From Desulfobotulus mexicanus (GTDB lineage: Bacteria > Desulfobacterota > Desulfobacteria > Desulfobacterales > ASO4-4): a DNA stretch of 64,000 nt. The position numbers and the translations under genes were made by a program. Under the pieces are notes generated by a model. It saw only the letters and a list, made by a program, of their open reading frames with translations. It searched no databases and was not told the DNA's origin. Shown one piece after another: positions 9,374 through 63,237 of the stretch. Location of the stretch: NCBI RefSeq assembly GCF_006175995.1, contig NZ_VDMB01000007.1:62001-126000 (forward strand), given 5' to 3'. The first letter of the stretch is position 1. Each line of letters begins with the position of its first letter.

Positions 9374-9475
9374 ATTGTTCAGCAATATCTTTGCTGGCTA
9401 AGGACCATAGCTGTCAGGCAAGTTCACAGGCACCCAGACAATTTGCCCGTGACGCAAAGCTGCTGAAATTACAAT
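9374..9475. repeat. Partial copy of the long palindromic intergenic repeat
   Basis: This copy carries a TTGTTCAGCA end, the GACCATAGCTGTCAGGCA segment shared with 4753-4825, CACAGGCACC, and the TTTGCCCGTGACGCAA arm that also occurs in the full elements at 21794-22160 and 61146-61496. The central hairpin is missing. It lies upstream of the ABC ATPase gene and may lie in that operon's leader or promoter region. Confidence 0.75.
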
Positions 9476-19117: not shown

Positions 19118-19324
19118 GTAATTGTTCAGTACAATTTTCCATGAGCACAGGCACCAAGGCTATTTGCCCGTGACGCAATCTTATTCGGGAACTTCTTGTC
19201 CTGTGCGGAAGCTCTGATCCGAAACGATTGCAAAGTCACTTGCAAACAGCCAAGGTGCCTTGCAATAACAGCGAAGCTGCTGCAAATACAGCATTGGAGT
19301 TACAAAATAAACTGTGCTGAACAG
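19118..19324. repeat. Internally deleted copy of the long palindromic repeat
   Basis: This 411-base gap between the rlmN operon and the UbiD gene is largely repeat. It begins with GTAATTGTTCAGTACA, continues with CTATTTGCCCGTGACGCAAT (the right arm of the full element read in reverse), then jumps after CTGTGCGG to AAGCTCTGATCCGAAACGAT, the reverse of the left arm, and ends with TGTGCTGAACA. Compared with 61146-61496 the central hairpin of about 130 bases is missing. The rest of the gap shows no gene. Confidence 0.82.
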
Positions 19325-19450
19325 CAACCCATGCCCTGTTAGGGTGTCTTATCGTAGAGTAACTTGTGCCGGATTCAAACTCATTTCGATCAGTGATGGA
19401 TCACCACCCACCCACTAAGCAACAGAATTAAAACAAATAAACCACACCAT

Positions 19451-21793: not shown

Positions 21794-22160
21794 TTGTTCC
21801 AATGTAACTTCAGCACATTTTTTCATGCAAGATTCTGTATTAATTTGAAAGTATTGGTTTCAACAAAAGGCAATCGGGCTGTTTGTGAGTGACATTGCAA
21901 TCGTTTCGGATCAGAGCTTCGCAGGCCTGTGCGAAAGAAGCGGCAAACTGTCTGAGCCGCCACAAAGGCAGCGTGCTTAAGCCTGTCATAGTAATCAAAA
22001 AGCTTATCCTGCCTGTGGCGGGGAGTTTTTGCCGCTTCCGCACAGGGCTAGAAGATCCCGAATAAGATTGCGTCACGAACAAATGGTCCGGTTGTCTATG
22101 CACCTGATTACAGGCATTCGATTTACCAAATGAAAATTGTGCTGAATAATTATGTTCCAA
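21794..22160. repeat. Long palindromic intergenic repeat, full copy
   Basis: A long imperfect palindrome between the PNPOx-like gene and the pyruvate carboxylase gene. Outer ends GTAACTTCAGCACA and TGTGCTGAATAATTA are inverted copies; inside them GAGTGACATTGCAATC faces AAGATTGCGTCACGAA; the innermost arms CCTGTGCGAAAGAAGCGGC and GCCGCTTCCGCACAGG enclose a core around 21950-22020. The region 21890-22035 is nearly identical to 61240-61380. It carries no convincing gene. Its left end lies only 20 bases from the start of the PNPOx-like gene, so it may include that gene's promoter. Confidence 0.88.
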
Positions 22161-22196
22161 TTAAAAAGGGACGGCCCATAAGACCGCCCCTTTTCA
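22161..22196 (-). terminator. Rho-independent terminator behind pyruvate carboxylase
   Basis: On the minus strand GGGGCGGTC and GGCCGTCCC form a stem with a 5-base loop followed by TTTTTAATT, 27 bases after the pyruvate carboxylase stop. It directly abuts the long palindromic repeat. Confidence 0.85.
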
Positions 22197-22223: not shown

Positions 22224-25200
22224 CTAACCCTGTTTTTTACCGCAGGACGGACAGAAAACAAAATCTTCCTGAACGGGCGCACCGCAGTCTTTACAACGGT
22301 TAGCGGAAACCGGTTCCAGCTCCACCAGAAGCTCGCCGTCTTTAACGGGGACCATTTTCCTGTCCACCTGATAACGGGCAGATTTAAGCACACGCTTCAC
22401 CCGGCCATCTACGGTGGAAAGCACGGCTTTCTCCTGCTTCATGATGGAAATATTGAATATTTCCTCACCCGCCTTCACCATATCCCCCACATTCACATGG
22501 GTCACCCAGAGATCTCCGTTGGAAGGCGAAGAAATATGATAGGGATTATCGGAATCAGCCATTTCCATGCCAGCGGTGCCACCCCTCAGGGGTTCTGCCA
22601 CCTTGACCACATGGGTCATTATTTCCGAATCAAGGTGATAACGGACCACAACATTGCCATCTTCATCGGGCAGGGAAAGATCCAGAATGGTCATTTCATG
22701 GGGCATGCCCCGACCGTCTTTAAAGGAGCATGAGCTGCCCTTTTCAATACCTTCAAACCAGACATCCAAAGGCAGATTGTTGGGATCTCCGTATTTCTCC
22801 TGGAAACGGATGGTCTTCAGGGCATCTCCGGGGTGGTTCAGGTAAAGGACCAGCTCTTCCTTCGTGGGTTCACGGTTCAAAGCCTTTGTCAAAGCCTCTT
22901 TTTCCAGATCAATATCCATGGGTTCCAGATGCTGCAAGGGAGAATCTTCCGTGCGCTTTTCCATGGACTTTTTATAATCCGGACCAAAGGCGGACTCATA
23001 TACCCATTCTGCAGGGAAACCCAAGGGAAGCTTGCCGAATTTACCCAGAATCAAATCCCGGAAAGCGTCATTGGCCTCCTGATAAATCTCAAGTCTTGCC
23101 TTTTTCATTTCATCGGACAGGGCTTCTTCCGGTGTATTCACAACGGCTTCCAGCACATCGAGAAGCTTACGCACATTCTTTTCCCCGCCCCGCTTATAAG
23201 CACCGGTAACTGAAAGAAAAGCCGTGTTCCAGGTAATCTGGGAGCCGGGCGTAACGTCGTGGTAACGGACAATCTGACGGATACCCGCCAGATATTTAAG
23301 CATATAAGGCAGCAGATGGATGTAGCCCTGCTTCATGGCCCCTTCCTGGGAAGAACTGGTGGCCCCTCCGGGCATACCGTGCTGCACAACCTCATAATCC
23401 ACACCCTGGAAATAGGGGGCTGTATAACGGTCATAATAGGGCATGATCTGCTTTAAAACAAAGCCAGCATCCCTCACCCTTTCCTTGTCCAGACAGATAT
23501 CAAGGCCGTGTTCCTCTTCAATGAGGGCAGCCGTTGCAAGGGCATCACCCTGACCATACCAGCGAACGGATGCTCCGATGGCCACATCGAGAATGTGACA
23601 CCCGGCTTCTGCTGCCGCAGAAAGGGCGGGAGAGAAAAGTCCGTCCGTACAGTGGCGGTGATAATGCAGCACCAGATCCGGATATTTTACCCTGAGCCTT
23701 TTTACCAGATCCCGGATCATGGATGGGGGGCAGACCCCTGCCATATCCTTTAGGCCAAGAATGATGATACGGCTGGCCTCTTCAAGGGAAACACCGGCAA
23801 CATCGGCCACCATGACAAGAATTTCTTCCGTAACGCCAAGGTAGTGGTCCGCATCAAAACCCTTGGCATAGCTCATGGAAATGGCGGGCTGGAAAATCTT
23901 GTATTTTTTGGGCAGAACCACTTCCGCAAAGGGCCGCATGTTTTCTATGTGGTTCAGAAAGTCAAAGCAGCGGATGACATCATAATTTTCACAGATCATC
24001 TCGCCTGTGGTGTGCATGAGATTTTTGGGCTGGGGCTTGTAGCCCAGCACATTGGTGGAACGGATCAGGATCTGCTTTAAGGTATCCGGCGCAAAATCAT
24101 TCCACTCATCGGCTTCCTTAAAGGGATAGGTCATGTTCCCCAGCATGGCCACATGGAAATGGGCACCACCGCCGTTTTCAAGGGAAAAGAAACCACATTT
24201 ATCCAGAATGGGTCCGATGAGGCGGTCTTCTGCCAGACGGAAACGGTTGCCGGAGTTGGACTGGGTCTGATCCCTGCATGTGGTATCAGAAAAAAACACT
24301 TTCCCGGCAGTTCTCACATAATCAAGTATACTCTCCCTGCTCTGCCCCCTTCTCAGGGGAACATGGGCAACAGCATCCCTTTCCGGTGTAAAGGGAATAA
24401 CCGGTGTGCAGGGACCAAGGCGCTTATCATGAAGCCCCCGGTATTTATCAAGGGAAAGGTACTCATTGTAACCCTTGGCGGAAATCTCTGCAATGAGTCG
24501 GGAAAGCCTGAGGGATTCAGGCTGCTGATCCACATAATCAAAGAGATCGGGATTTTTCTGCACAAACTTGGTGTCATAGTTGCCGGAAATGAATTCTTCA
24601 CGCTCCAGCACAACCTTATAAAAGGGAATGGTGGTTTTAACACCGGAAATCATGCATTCTTTCAAGGCCCTGCGCATCTGTTCCACATTCTTGGACCAGG
24701 AAGATGCATAGGCAATGAGCAGAGAGGCTGCGGAATCATACTGGGAAGGAAATTCATAGCCCGCTGTAATACAGGAATCTATACGTATACCCTGACCACC
24801 CGGAGAGGTGTAACGGGTAATACGGCCCGCATTGGGAGAAAAGCCCTTTTTGGGATCTTCGCAGTTAATGCGCACCTGCATGGCATACTGGTGAGGCTTT
24901 GTGTTCTCTTCATTGAAACGCAAAGCACAGCCATAGGCAATGGCAATCTGTTCTTCCACCAGATCCACCCCATAGCGGCATTCGGTGATTCCATGCTCCA
25001 CCTGAAGACGGGTGTTGGCTTCAATCAGGTAGGGGTTACCCTCCATGTCCACAAGAAATTCCACCGTGGCCAGAGAATAATAATCCACTGCCTTCACCAG
25101 TTTGATGGCATACTCCTTAAGGCGTGCCCTCAACTCTTCTGTCATTTTGGGCCAGGGAGACGGCGTGATTTCAATGAGCTTCTGGTGGTTACGCTGCACC

Positions 25201-25940
25201 GTGCAGTCCCGCTCATCAAAGGCAAAGACATTGCCGTATTTATCGGCAATGACCTGAATTTCTATGTGACGGACTTCAGAAAGCAGTCTTTCCACAAAAA
25301 GCCTTGGGTTACCAAAACTGGCTTCGGCCAGGGCTGAAGCCTTCACAAAACTGGACTCAAGATCCGCTTCGGAATAGACTTCATAAATACCTCTGCCACC
25401 GCCACCACCTTCGGCCTTGAGCATAATGGGGAAACCCAGCTTAACGGCAATTTCCCTTGCCTGAGGAATGCTTACTGCTCCCTCGGAACCGGGCACCACA
25501 GGAACCCCCACCTTCTGGGCCAGCGCCCGGACAGCCACCTTGTTACCCAGATCAAACATGGCCTTATGGGGAGGTCCGATGAAAATGAGACCCGCCTCCT
25601 CACATTTGGCAGGAAAGGAATCATCTTCAGCACCAAAGCCCCATCCCGGATGGATGGCTTCAATGCCTTCTTCTTTGGCTTTTTTTACAATACGGTCCAG
25701 ATCCAGATAGGCTGTGGGATTTTCCCCCAGAAGCATCAGTTTTCTTGCACCGATGGCTGCGGGAGAGGTTTTATCAATGTCCGTTGCCGTTATGCAGGCC
25801 GTTGCCCCCAGCTCTGTGACAGCCCTGGCAATTCTGCGGGCAGGAATACCCCGGTTGGCAATGAGAATGCGGACATCATTGCCCGATTCCCGCCTTCGCC
25901 GGATTTCTGAACGGAACTCTTCAAAGGTTTGTGCACCCAT
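22224..25940 (-). CDS. pyc: Pyruvate carboxylase with extra C-terminal zinc ribbon
   Basis: A 1238-residue single-chain biotin enzyme that makes oxaloacetate from pyruvate, bicarbonate and ATP. Biotin carboxylase occupies ~20-480 (ATP-grasp GGGGGRGI, ERDCTVQRNHQKLIE, EANTRLQVEHGITE). The carboxyltransferase begins at SDTTCRDQTQSNSGN (~545) and keeps the carbamylated lysine in GLKDMAGV and the metal histidines in LHYHRHCTDG. The carboxyltransferase tail follows, then the biotinyl domain with lysine in IMKQEKAV (~1180) in place of the usual AMKM. After it comes an appended zinc ribbon, CKDCG and CPSCG (~1215-1235), which standard enzymes lack. Its biotin ligase gene lies just upstream. An AAGGAAA site precedes the ATG. 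Confidence 0.93.
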   Translation of the reverse strand: MGAQTFEEFRSEIRRRRESGNDVRILIANRGIPARRIARAVTELGATACITATDIDKTSPAAIGARKLMLLGENPTAYLDLDRIVKKAKEEGIEAIHPGWGFGAEDDSFPAKCEEAGLIFIGPPHKAMFDLGNKVAVRALAQKVGVPVVPGSEGAVSIPQAREIAVKLGFPIMLKAEGGGGGRGIYEVYSEADLESSFVKASALAEASFGNPRLFVERLLSEVRHIEIQVIADKYGNVFAFDERDCTVQRNHQKLIEITPSPWPKMTEELRARLKEYAIKLVKAVDYYSLATVEFLVDMEGNPYLIEANTRLQVEHGITECRYGVDLVEEQIAIAYGCALRFNEENTKPHQYAMQVRINCEDPKKGFSPNAGRITRYTSPGGQGIRIDSCITAGYEFPSQYDSAASLLIAYASSWSKNVEQMRRALKECMISGVKTTIPFYKVVLEREEFISGNYDTKFVQKNPDLFDYVDQQPESLRLSRLIAEISAKGYNEYLSLDKYRGLHDKRLGPCTPVIPFTPERDAVAHVPLRRGQSRESILDYVRTAGKVFFSDTTCRDQTQSNSGNRFRLAEDRLIGPILDKCGFFSLENGGGAHFHVAMLGNMTYPFKEADEWNDFAPDTLKQILIRSTNVLGYKPQPKNLMHTTGEMICENYDVIRCFDFLNHIENMRPFAEVVLPKKYKIFQPAISMSYAKGFDADHYLGVTEEILVMVADVAGVSLEEASRIIILGLKDMAGVCPPSMIRDLVKRLRVKYPDLVLHYHRHCTDGLFSPALSAAAEAGCHILDVAIGASVRWYGQGDALATAALIEEEHGLDICLDKERVRDAGFVLKQIMPYYDRYTAPYFQGVDYEVVQHGMPGGATSSSQEGAMKQGYIHLLPYMLKYLAGIRQIVRYHDVTPGSQITWNTAFLSVTGAYKRGGEKNVRKLLDVLEAVVNTPEEALSDEMKKARLEIYQEANDAFRDLILGKFGKLPLGFPAEWVYESAFGPDYKKSMEKRTEDSPLQHLEPMDIDLEKEALTKALNREPTKEELVLYLNHPGDALKTIRFQEKYGDPNNLPLDVWFEGIEKGSSCSFKDGRGMPHEMTILDLSLPDEDGNVVVRYHLDSEIMTHVVKVAEPLRGGTAGMEMADSDNPYHISSPSNGDLWVTHVNVGDMVKAGEEIFNISIMKQEKAVLSTVDGRVKRVLKSARYQVDRKMVPVKDGELLVELEPVSANRCKDCGAPVQEDFVFCPSCGKKQG

Positions 25941-60961: not shown

Positions 60962-61003
60962 AAGCCCGGCAGACACAATTTTAAAAATGCCGGGCTTCCT
61001 TTC
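60962..61003 (+). terminator. Rho-independent terminator
   Basis: AAGCCCGGCA and TGCCGGGCTT form a ten-base perfect stem with a 16-base loop, followed by CCTTTCTCTTCT. It ends the + strand transcript of the gene at 60450-60812. Confidence 0.75.
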
Positions 61004-61145
61004 TCTTCTGTAAAAATTAAAAACTTTTGCTTTGCAAATCAAAGGCATTCAATCAGGCAGGCATACCATGCAAAGGTACAGAAGCCATCTTTCGGGATTG
61101 TAATGGATAGCGGGACAGGCTAAAAGAATCCCTGTATAAAAGAAG

Positions 61146-61496
61146 GTAACTGTTCGGCACAATTTTATTCCGAAGCTGCAATGCTTTAGTTTCATTGACT
61201 CAGCTCCATGGCAAGGCTCCCTGGCTATTTGCAAGTGACGTTGCAATCGTTTCGGATAAGAGCTTTGCAGACCTGTGCGAAAGAAGCGGCAAACTGTCTG
61301 AGCCGCCACAAAGGCAGCGTGCATAAGCCTGCTATGGTAATCAAAAAGCTCATCCTGCCTGTGGCGGTGAGTTTTTGCCGATTCCGCACAGGGCAAGAAG
61401 CTCTAAGAATAAGATTGCGTCACGGGCAAATAGCCTGGGAGCCTGTGCACCTTGCTTACAGGTATGAAACCTAAAAATGTGCTGAACAATTACAAA
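61146..61496. repeat. Long palindromic intergenic repeat, full copy
   Basis: Second full copy of the element at 21794-22160. Outer ends GTAACTGTTCGGCACA and TGTGCTGAACAATTAC are inverted copies. Inside, CTATTTGCAAGTGACG faces GTCACGGGCAAATAG, and the inner arms CCTGTGCGAAAGAAGCGGC (from 61272) and GCCGATTCCGCACAGG (to 61392) surround a core of about 120 bases with its own stem, GCCGCCACAAAGGCAG against CTGCCTGTGGCGG, and a ~37-base loop. The whole could fold into one long hairpin. Short frames in it are not convincing genes. It lies directly upstream of recN. Confidence 0.9.
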
Positions 61497-61533
61497 ATAA
61501 GTTCCTTATTCCTCTATCCAAAGGAAAGGCCCC

Positions 61534-63237
61534 ATGCTCAGCGAACTTGCCATCCGCAATTTTGCCATCATCGATGACCTGACCATAGGCTTTGGCCAGG
61601 GCATGACCGTCATGAGCGGTGAAACCGGCGCAGGGAAATCCATCATCATTCAGGCTGTGAACCTGCTTCTGGGAAGCCGTGCAGATGCCCGCATGATACG
61701 CCAGGGACACAGCAGCGCAGAGGTGGAAGCCCTTTTCATGCCAAGAGCAGGAAGCCCTGCGGCCATTGCCATGGAGAAAAACGACATCCCTTTGGATCAG
61801 GGACTGCATATCCGCAGAGTGCTTTCCGCCACAGGTCCCCACAAAATATACATCAACTCCCGCATGGCCACGGCCCAGCTTTTGGGAGAACTTACCGAAC
61901 AGCTTGCAAGCATAGCAGGACAGCATGCCCACCAGCGCCTTCTGGATGAAAACCTTCATCTGGATATGCTCGATGATTATGCAGGGCTGGAAAAAGAACT
62001 GACACAATATACTGAAAGCCACGGAAAACTGCTCCAGACCCTGAGGGAGATGGAAAACCTGAAAAAGAAAAAGGCCAAAGAAGAGGCGGAGGCGGATTTC
62101 ACGGCCTTTCAGATCCGGGAAATTGAAGAGGCAGGTCCAAAGGAAAACGAAGATGCAGAACTTGAAATCTTAAGAAAAAAACTGCGCCATGCCCATGCTC
62201 TGGGACAAACCATCGGCCTTGTGGTGGAACAGCTCTATGAAGGAGAAGATGCCATAGCAGGAAAACTTGCCATGCTGCGCAAGGAAATGGACAAGGCAGC
62301 TTCCCTGGACCCCTCCCTGGATACGGCAGCCAGTGACACAGAAGCCCTTGCCCTGCGCTGCGAAGATCTGGCAGGACATCTGCGCCAGTACCTTGACCAT
62401 ATGGAGATGAATCCGGCCCTGCTGGATCAGGTGGAAAGCCGGCTGCATCTCCTTGCAAAACTGAAGAAAAAATACGGCCCTGAACTGAAGGATGTGCTGG
62501 CACACAAAGAAACACTGGAAAAACGGTACATGGAAGCAGACTCCATGGAAGAACGCATGGAAGAACTCAAGAAACAGCGCCTTATCCTTTACAATGAAAC
62601 CCTGAAGCTTGCCCGTCATCTTTCGGAAAAACGCAGTGCCGCAGCCCTGACCATGGCCTCTGCCGTGGAAAAGGAACTGGCTGACCTCTGTATGGCCGGA
62701 ACCCGATTCCGGGTGGCCCTGCTGCCTCTGGAAGCTGGCAGCTCTCCATGGATGAAGGATGAAAAGGGACAGGGGCTGGGGGAAAAAGGAAGTGAAAGTG
62801 CACGGTTCTGTATCGCCCCCAATGTGGGGGAAACGGAAAACCCTTTAAGTAAAATTGCCTCGGGCGGGGAACTCTCCAGAACGGTTCTGGCCCTAAAAAC
62901 CATTCTGGCCCGCAACGAGGCCGTAAGCACCATTGTATTTGATGAAGCCGATGCCGGTATCGGCGGCTCCGTGGCCGAGGCTGTGGGGAAAAAAATGCAG
63001 TCTTTATCCAGCACCCATCAGGTGATATGCATCACCCATCTGGCCCAGATCGCAAAATTCGGCCACCACCACCTTCACATTGCCAAGGCCGTGGAAGGAG
63101 GACGAACCCGAACCCGCATCCGGCTTCTTTCAAAGGATGAAAGGCCGGGCGAGCTGGCAAGGATGCTGGGCGGAGCCGCCATTTCAGAAACAACCCTTGC
63201 CCATGCAAGGGAGCTGCTATCGGAAGCCCATACTTGA
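61534..63237 (+). CDS. recN: DNA repair protein RecN
   Basis: A 567-residue SMC-like ATPase that acts early in recombinational repair of double-strand breaks, binding DNA ends and supporting RecA. It opens with LSELAIRNFAIIDDLTIGF, Walker A SGETGAGKSIII (~29), and a long coiled coil (~150-380). The C-terminal half has SGGELSRTVLALK (ABC signature) and IVFDEADAGIGG (Walker B), then VICITHLAQIAKFG. The length is normal. AAAGGAAAGG precedes the ATG. It is followed by a small zinc-ribbon gene. Its leader region holds a full palindromic repeat. Confidence 0.96.
   Translation: MLSELAIRNFAIIDDLTIGFGQGMTVMSGETGAGKSIIIQAVNLLLGSRADARMIRQGHSSAEVEALFMPRAGSPAAIAMEKNDIPLDQGLHIRRVLSATGPHKIYINSRMATAQLLGELTEQLASIAGQHAHQRLLDENLHLDMLDDYAGLEKELTQYTESHGKLLQTLREMENLKKKKAKEEAEADFTAFQIREIEEAGPKENEDAELEILRKKLRHAHALGQTIGLVVEQLYEGEDAIAGKLAMLRKEMDKAASLDPSLDTAASDTEALALRCEDLAGHLRQYLDHMEMNPALLDQVESRLHLLAKLKKKYGPELKDVLAHKETLEKRYMEADSMEERMEELKKQRLILYNETLKLARHLSEKRSAAALTMASAVEKELADLCMAGTRFRVALLPLEAGSSPWMKDEKGQGLGEKGSESARFCIAPNVGETENPLSKIASGGELSRTVLALKTILARNEAVSTIVFDEADAGIGGSVAEAVGKKMQSLSSTHQVICITHLAQIAKFGHHHLHIAKAVEGGRTRTRIRLLSKDERPGELARMLGGAAISETTLAHARELLSEAHT

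Follow-up and report, generated by a model that had tools for sequence, protein, structure and literature searches.

A family of miniature inverted-repeat elements in Desulfobotulus with IS66-type ends and interchangeable inner hairpins

The window (the 64,000-nt stretch of DNA analysed here) contains two copies of a long hairpin-forming element that is very probably a non-autonomous DNA transposon of Desulfobotulus, a miniature inverted-repeat element (MITE) moved in trans by an IS66/ISBst12-type transposase, with its fold kept and its modules exchanged after insertion. This MITE family with IS66-type ends is real, and as far as the literature searched shows it is undescribed: it has no Rfam entry, and neither the family nor any IS66-type MITE was found reported in the open literature searched. 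Elements of this sort are ordinary, and what sets this one apart is its nested and modular hairpin. In the mechanism that we propose, the GTAAYTRTTCAGCA ends would be recognized in trans by an IS66-family DDE transposase from the single-ORF (ISBst12) group, and the MITE would insert mostly into intergenic A/T tracts with the duplication of 8 bp. Between the ends the nested inverted arms would fold as one long hairpin, and once inserted the copies would trade inner hairpin modules with one another and could flip at their site by way of the arms.

Copies, ends and insertion sites

Three Desulfobotulus genomes were compared, the window's own genome (G000), D. alkaliphilus ASO4-4 (G001) and a third congener (G002). 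Using a 24-base core pattern with up to three mismatches we found 84, 174 and at least 11 matches, respectively, with 0 for the reversed pattern used as control; half-sites of the terminal inverted repeat number 156, 372 and 25 in the same order. BLAST of the window's own genome gave 40 full or partial copies among 164 candidates. The search of the genome and its relatives that had been suggested in the first-pass annotation thus returned further copies, and taking ~350 bp for each of the 84 and 174 core copies these make up roughly 0.8% of the window genome and ~1.5% of that of D. alkaliphilus. The MITE is absent from 37 further genomes of the same order outside Desulfobotulus, plasmid records gave no match to it, and viral contigs gave no match to its core.

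When aligned, the copies start with GTAAYTRTTCAGCACAG and finish with its reverse complement, forming terminal inverted repeats of 17 bp to which the outer TGTGCTGAACA ends noted earlier belong. Among the 171 copies having both ends and flanks, 103 are bordered by an 8-bp target duplication with no more than one mismatch (68 perfect, 35 with one mismatch), and other duplication lengths (4-7 and 9) were seen in only 2-8 copies each. A clear 8-bp duplication is missing from ~40% of the delimited copies, as expected for old or recombined copies. The first-pass annotation had proposed looking for target-site duplications, and described neither these nor the IS66-type ends. The MITE is 180-480 bp in length with no coding capacity, and the open reading frames that overlap copies (115 and 106 aa) gave no Pfam match. 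A coding origin for the centre, where some copies have a long open frame, was considered and rejected; 1-nt insertions and deletions break the frame in others, and it has no Pfam match.

The insertion site at 21804 is empty in G001, where the flanks joined at one copy of the duplication align without a gap (596/600 nt, 91.4%), and the same site in G002 likewise lacks the MITE. Insertion in the lineage of the window is therefore the simplest history. Three more empty sites were seen in G001, where the loci were fetched by means of a core match so that filled sites are over-represented relative to empty ones. A run of five or more A/T is present at 42 of 103 insertion sites, compared with 8-12 of 98 nearby shifted control positions. 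Targeting of terminators was rejected, since the excess is weak (15/103 sites against 4-9/98 controls) and is explained by the preference for A/T tracts. About 7 of 69 insertion sites may fall well inside a long frame. Copy number, terminal inverted repeats, 8-bp duplications and the empty site all support the earlier proposal of a miniature inverted-repeat element moved in trans.

Within the window both repeated segments are present near 21794-22160 and 61146-61496, as originally described. Their ends had been placed roughly, and are off by 3-10 bases from the exact ends (61146-61493 and 21804-22153) that we define by the terminal repeats plus the flanking target duplications (Table 1). The description of two full copies holds for the window, which in addition has a deleted copy and an arm remnant. 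The two full copies are 87% identical across 238 bases, and are flanked by the duplications aaaagaag/aaaataag (61146-61493) and gttccaat/gttccaat (21804-22153). Copy 1 lies 40 bp upstream of recN, and copy 2 is flanked by a pyruvate carboxylase gene and a PNPOx-like gene. The pyruvate carboxylase-like protein (1238 aa, encoded at 22224-25940 on the minus strand) has an apparent C-terminal zinc ribbon after the biotinyl domain (residues ~1211-1236; Pfam matches below cut-off).

Table 1. Positions of the MITE copies and their parts in the window.
Feature	Position	Strand	Basis
Left target-site duplication AAAAGAAG	61138..61145	.	sequence; 8-bp length derived from 171 copies
Copy 1 of the MITE, 348 bp, type A, close upstream of recN	61146..61493	+	
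Left terminal inverted repeat GTAACTGTTCGGCACAA	61146..61162	+	
Right terminal inverted repeat, minus strand reads GTAATTGTTCAGCACAT	61477..61493	-	
Left middle arm, 27 nt, 89% complementary to 61418-61444	61214..61240	+	
Right middle arm	61418..61444	+	
Inner hairpin module A (CCTGTGCG...GCGGC / GCCG...CGCACAGG), loop variable	61273..61393	+	
Right target-site duplication AAAATAAG, 7/8 matching	61494..61501	.	
Left target-site duplication GTTCCAAT	21796..21803	.	
Copy 2 of the MITE, inner hairpin of type A and outer arms of the diverged 'subfamily 2', site empty in G001	21804..22153	+	
Right target-site duplication GTTCCAAT, perfect	22154..22161	.	
211-bp copy of the MITE with an internal deletion, lacking a clear target duplication	19118..19328	-	
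MITE remnant, right arm only	9374..9457	-	nhmmer, 42.6 bits, E 1.2e-11

Candidate transposase and related systems

The ends of the MITE start with GTAA, as in IS66 elements of the ISBst12 group, and taken with the 8-bp duplications this makes an IS66-type transposase its most likely mobilizer in trans. ISDge4, an active ISBst12-group element of Deinococcus, has GTAACTGCTCAGCA ends and an 8-bp repeat (PMC12898284), and its end agrees with that of the MITE in 13 of 14 bases. Relatives in the order contain single-ORF IS66 elements (L191, L193, L195, L196) of ~1.7 kb (1.6-1.8 kb), with GTAACTATTCAGC-type ends (for example GTAACTATTCAGCA) and perfect 8-bp duplications. While ISDge4 and these elements share with the MITE the type of end and the 8-bp direct repeats, ISBst12 elements encode TnpC within 1.6-1.8 kb, whereas the MITE, at ~180-480 bp, has no transposase, and no significant homology was detected between its interior and IS66 elements.

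No intact IS66 transposase with MITE-type ends was found in the three Desulfobotulus genomes. PF03050 (DDE_Tnp_IS66) has no match in the window's genome, and G002 likewise has no intact IS66 transposase. Given that there is no PF03050 match and that the copies are too short for TnpC, the MITE is at most a derivative with IS66-type ends and not an IS66 element. G001 has one IS66 element, and as its end is different (GTAACTTCTCAATAAG) it is ruled out as the direct parent. Downstream of this element (L051, G001:C66, from ~2770 onwards) the sequence looks, on visual inspection, like a portion of a group II intron or of a similar structured RNA. A decayed piece of an IS66 TnpC of ~70 aa lies at G000:C2:120716-120916 (L211 ~2213-2414), and shares 45% identity with the ISBst12-type TnpC from a relative; this is possibly a trace of the lost mobilizer. 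We infer the identity of the transposase from the ends and duplications, and its gene may have been lost, or be missing from the draft assemblies, which at 69-100 contigs can lose multi-copy IS elements.

Bacterial MITEs derived from insertion sequences include MITECca01 of Cardinium (from IS982), MITEAba12 and the QMITEs of Coxiella, which like the Desulfobotulus MITE are short, non-coding, mostly intergenic and of high copy number, with terminal inverted repeats (PMC9769881, PMC10969869). The Desulfobotulus MITE differs in its parent insertion sequence, in its long nested hairpin with interchangeable inner modules and in lacking an intact parent in its genome. ERIC, Correia (NEMIS) and YPAL are similarly imperfect intergenic palindromes that can fold as RNA. 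The MITE is longer than these and has no sequence match to them (none in Rfam), and it duplicates 8 bp of target, whereas ERIC and Correia duplicate TA.

Hairpin fold and apparent exchange of inner modules

The nested self-complementary hairpin recognized in the first-pass annotation is real. The fold energies of the 61146 and 21804 copies are -156.5 kcal/mol (z = -9.5) and -144.4 kcal/mol (z = -8.9), and no shuffled sequence was as low as either. RNAalifold applied to 28 diverse copies gives a single long hairpin of 78 pairs, with 98.2% of cells paired in the consensus fold. Compensatory base changes had been predicted, and we find 34 cells with two-sided (double) changes, where shuffles give 10.0 and sliding the partner gives 1-16. 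The outer arms are strongly different between two subfamilies, yet arm complementarity is kept in both. Such compensation shows that the hairpin fold was retained in those copies that spread.

In the firm stems a standard pair is kept by 16 of 22 variants common to at least four copies, compared with 21 of 66 singletons (Fisher p = 0.001). Shared one-sided changes on one strand give 11 G.U against 2 A.C (p = 0.02), while singletons give 12 of each. Because the copies are related these counts are suggestive rather than independent, and they fit a fold that is kept in copies that spread and decays in resident copies. It might be kept because a hairpin is of benefit to propagation, or through mutual correction of the arms.

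The copies fall into size classes. Those of ~346 bp have hairpin A, those of 310 bp have a 5' deletion, and the inner hairpin is lost in those of 170-195 bp. A second hairpin, B (stem TCCGGCACTCAAG), takes the place of A in copies of 260-273 bp, and copies of 412 and 440-479 bp have A plus one or two B. The B hairpins have a conserved 13-bp stem and highly variable loops of ~45 nt (e.g. L056 643-713 and 850-920), and always occupy either of two fixed positions in the MITE. B was rejected as an independent second MITE, with 60/60 B hairpins lying in MITE context (53 in delimited copies and 7 beside the same flanks).

At sites common to two species, as seen in the drafts, the outer arms are vertical while the inner module is swapped (A, B, A+B, A+B+B' or none) and some copies are inverted. 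Both species carry the MITE at 17 shared sites, and for nine of these the orthologue has the best-matching outer arms of ~124 G001 elements, while its core is usually not the best, often ranking 10-92. The recN-site copy is 348 bp in the window genome, and its D. alkaliphilus counterpart at this site is ~469 bp (A+B+B'). In the pair L231/L140 both the outer arms and the duplication context are near-identical, and the left inner module differs. The outer arms of L023/L060 are 97-100% identical, with the orientation reversed and a different inner hairpin, and L239/L103 is also reversed in orientation, with outer arms that are best-ranked; L005 and L025 have probably been inverted as well. All of this would be accounted for by gene conversion between copies together with inversion mediated by the arms, and we infer recombination as the cause.

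It is plausible, if a little short of probable, that the ancestral insertions act as slots with vertical outer arms, in which cassettes (A, B, B' and combinations) are exchanged and whole elements flip, and that one-strand selection keeps the hairpin. If true, a dispersed mobile repeat would here be evolving in a concerted and modular way in a bacterium. Selection would not be needed if the hairpin were maintained by arm-to-arm templated correction (cruciform or template-switch repair), with inner homogeneity arising by gene conversion between copies. This is possible, though on the doubtful side, and is compatible with a MITE. The arms are long and near-complementary, and conservation is higher in the core, with 0.18-0.24 shared variants per site against 1.1-1.3 in the outer arms. 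The ranking of arms and cores at the shared sites, and the swap of modules between near-identical outer arms in L231/L140, are also consistent with it. However, templated correction predicts equal numbers of G.U and A.C intermediates, contrary to the excess of G.U among the shared changes. Moreover, constraint on the core could also scramble the core ranks, and misassembly could mimic conversion.

Misassembly is the chief caution for exchange and inversion in place, the evidence for which comes from draft assemblies where short reads may not span the repeat. The MITE exceeds the length of a short read and is highly repeated, and several G001 copies contain central runs of N (L080, L083, L156). 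Yet the copies compared are free of N, and the inverted L023/L060 and L239/L103 differ already at the junction between element and flank, which can be covered by single reads. We think it unlikely that the differences in inner module and the inversions between species are artefacts of short-read drafts. If long reads confirm the exchange and inversion of cassettes, these MITEs would offer a natural system for measuring gene conversion, as well as inversion, among short dispersed repeats, and would be a trap for short-read assembly and for promoter and terminator prediction in Desulfobotulus.

Gene context and composite loci

A structured RNA was the other option raised in the first-pass annotation, and of this the conserved single-strand fold stands. 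The compensatory changes in the stems agree with it, and the shared variants that keep pairs, with the excess of G.U, hint at selection on one strand acting as a single-stranded nucleic acid. A host function is unsupported, since orientation to genes is unbiased (40 same and 56 opposite in co-directional gaps; 132 sense and 164 antisense for all neighbours) and there is no match in the whole window to Rfam 15 at the gathering threshold. The distribution of 148 copies between co-directional (96), convergent (32) and divergent (20) gaps is near the background of 218/75/78. No promoter-like site was found in 61000-61600, the presence of the inner hairpin varies freely among copies, and singleton variants show no constraint. 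It is very unlikely that the host keeps the element primarily as a functional structured RNA, or as a cis-regulatory hairpin such as a terminator, an RNase III site or an mRNA stabilizer, with mobility incidental, and a regulatory role for the MITE in the host is unsupported.

Some loci are composite. At L093 5000-5544 a MITE copy is adjoined by a second, partial right arm, and this duplicated end suggests nested insertion or arm recombination. The copies at L171 5165-5660 and L082 2765-3315 are interrupted by another repeat with GGGCAGGCGCAAGGCCTGCCCCTACGAA / TAGGGGCACCCTTTACGGGTGCCC arms, which would seem to represent another family of palindromic repeats in D. alkaliphilus.
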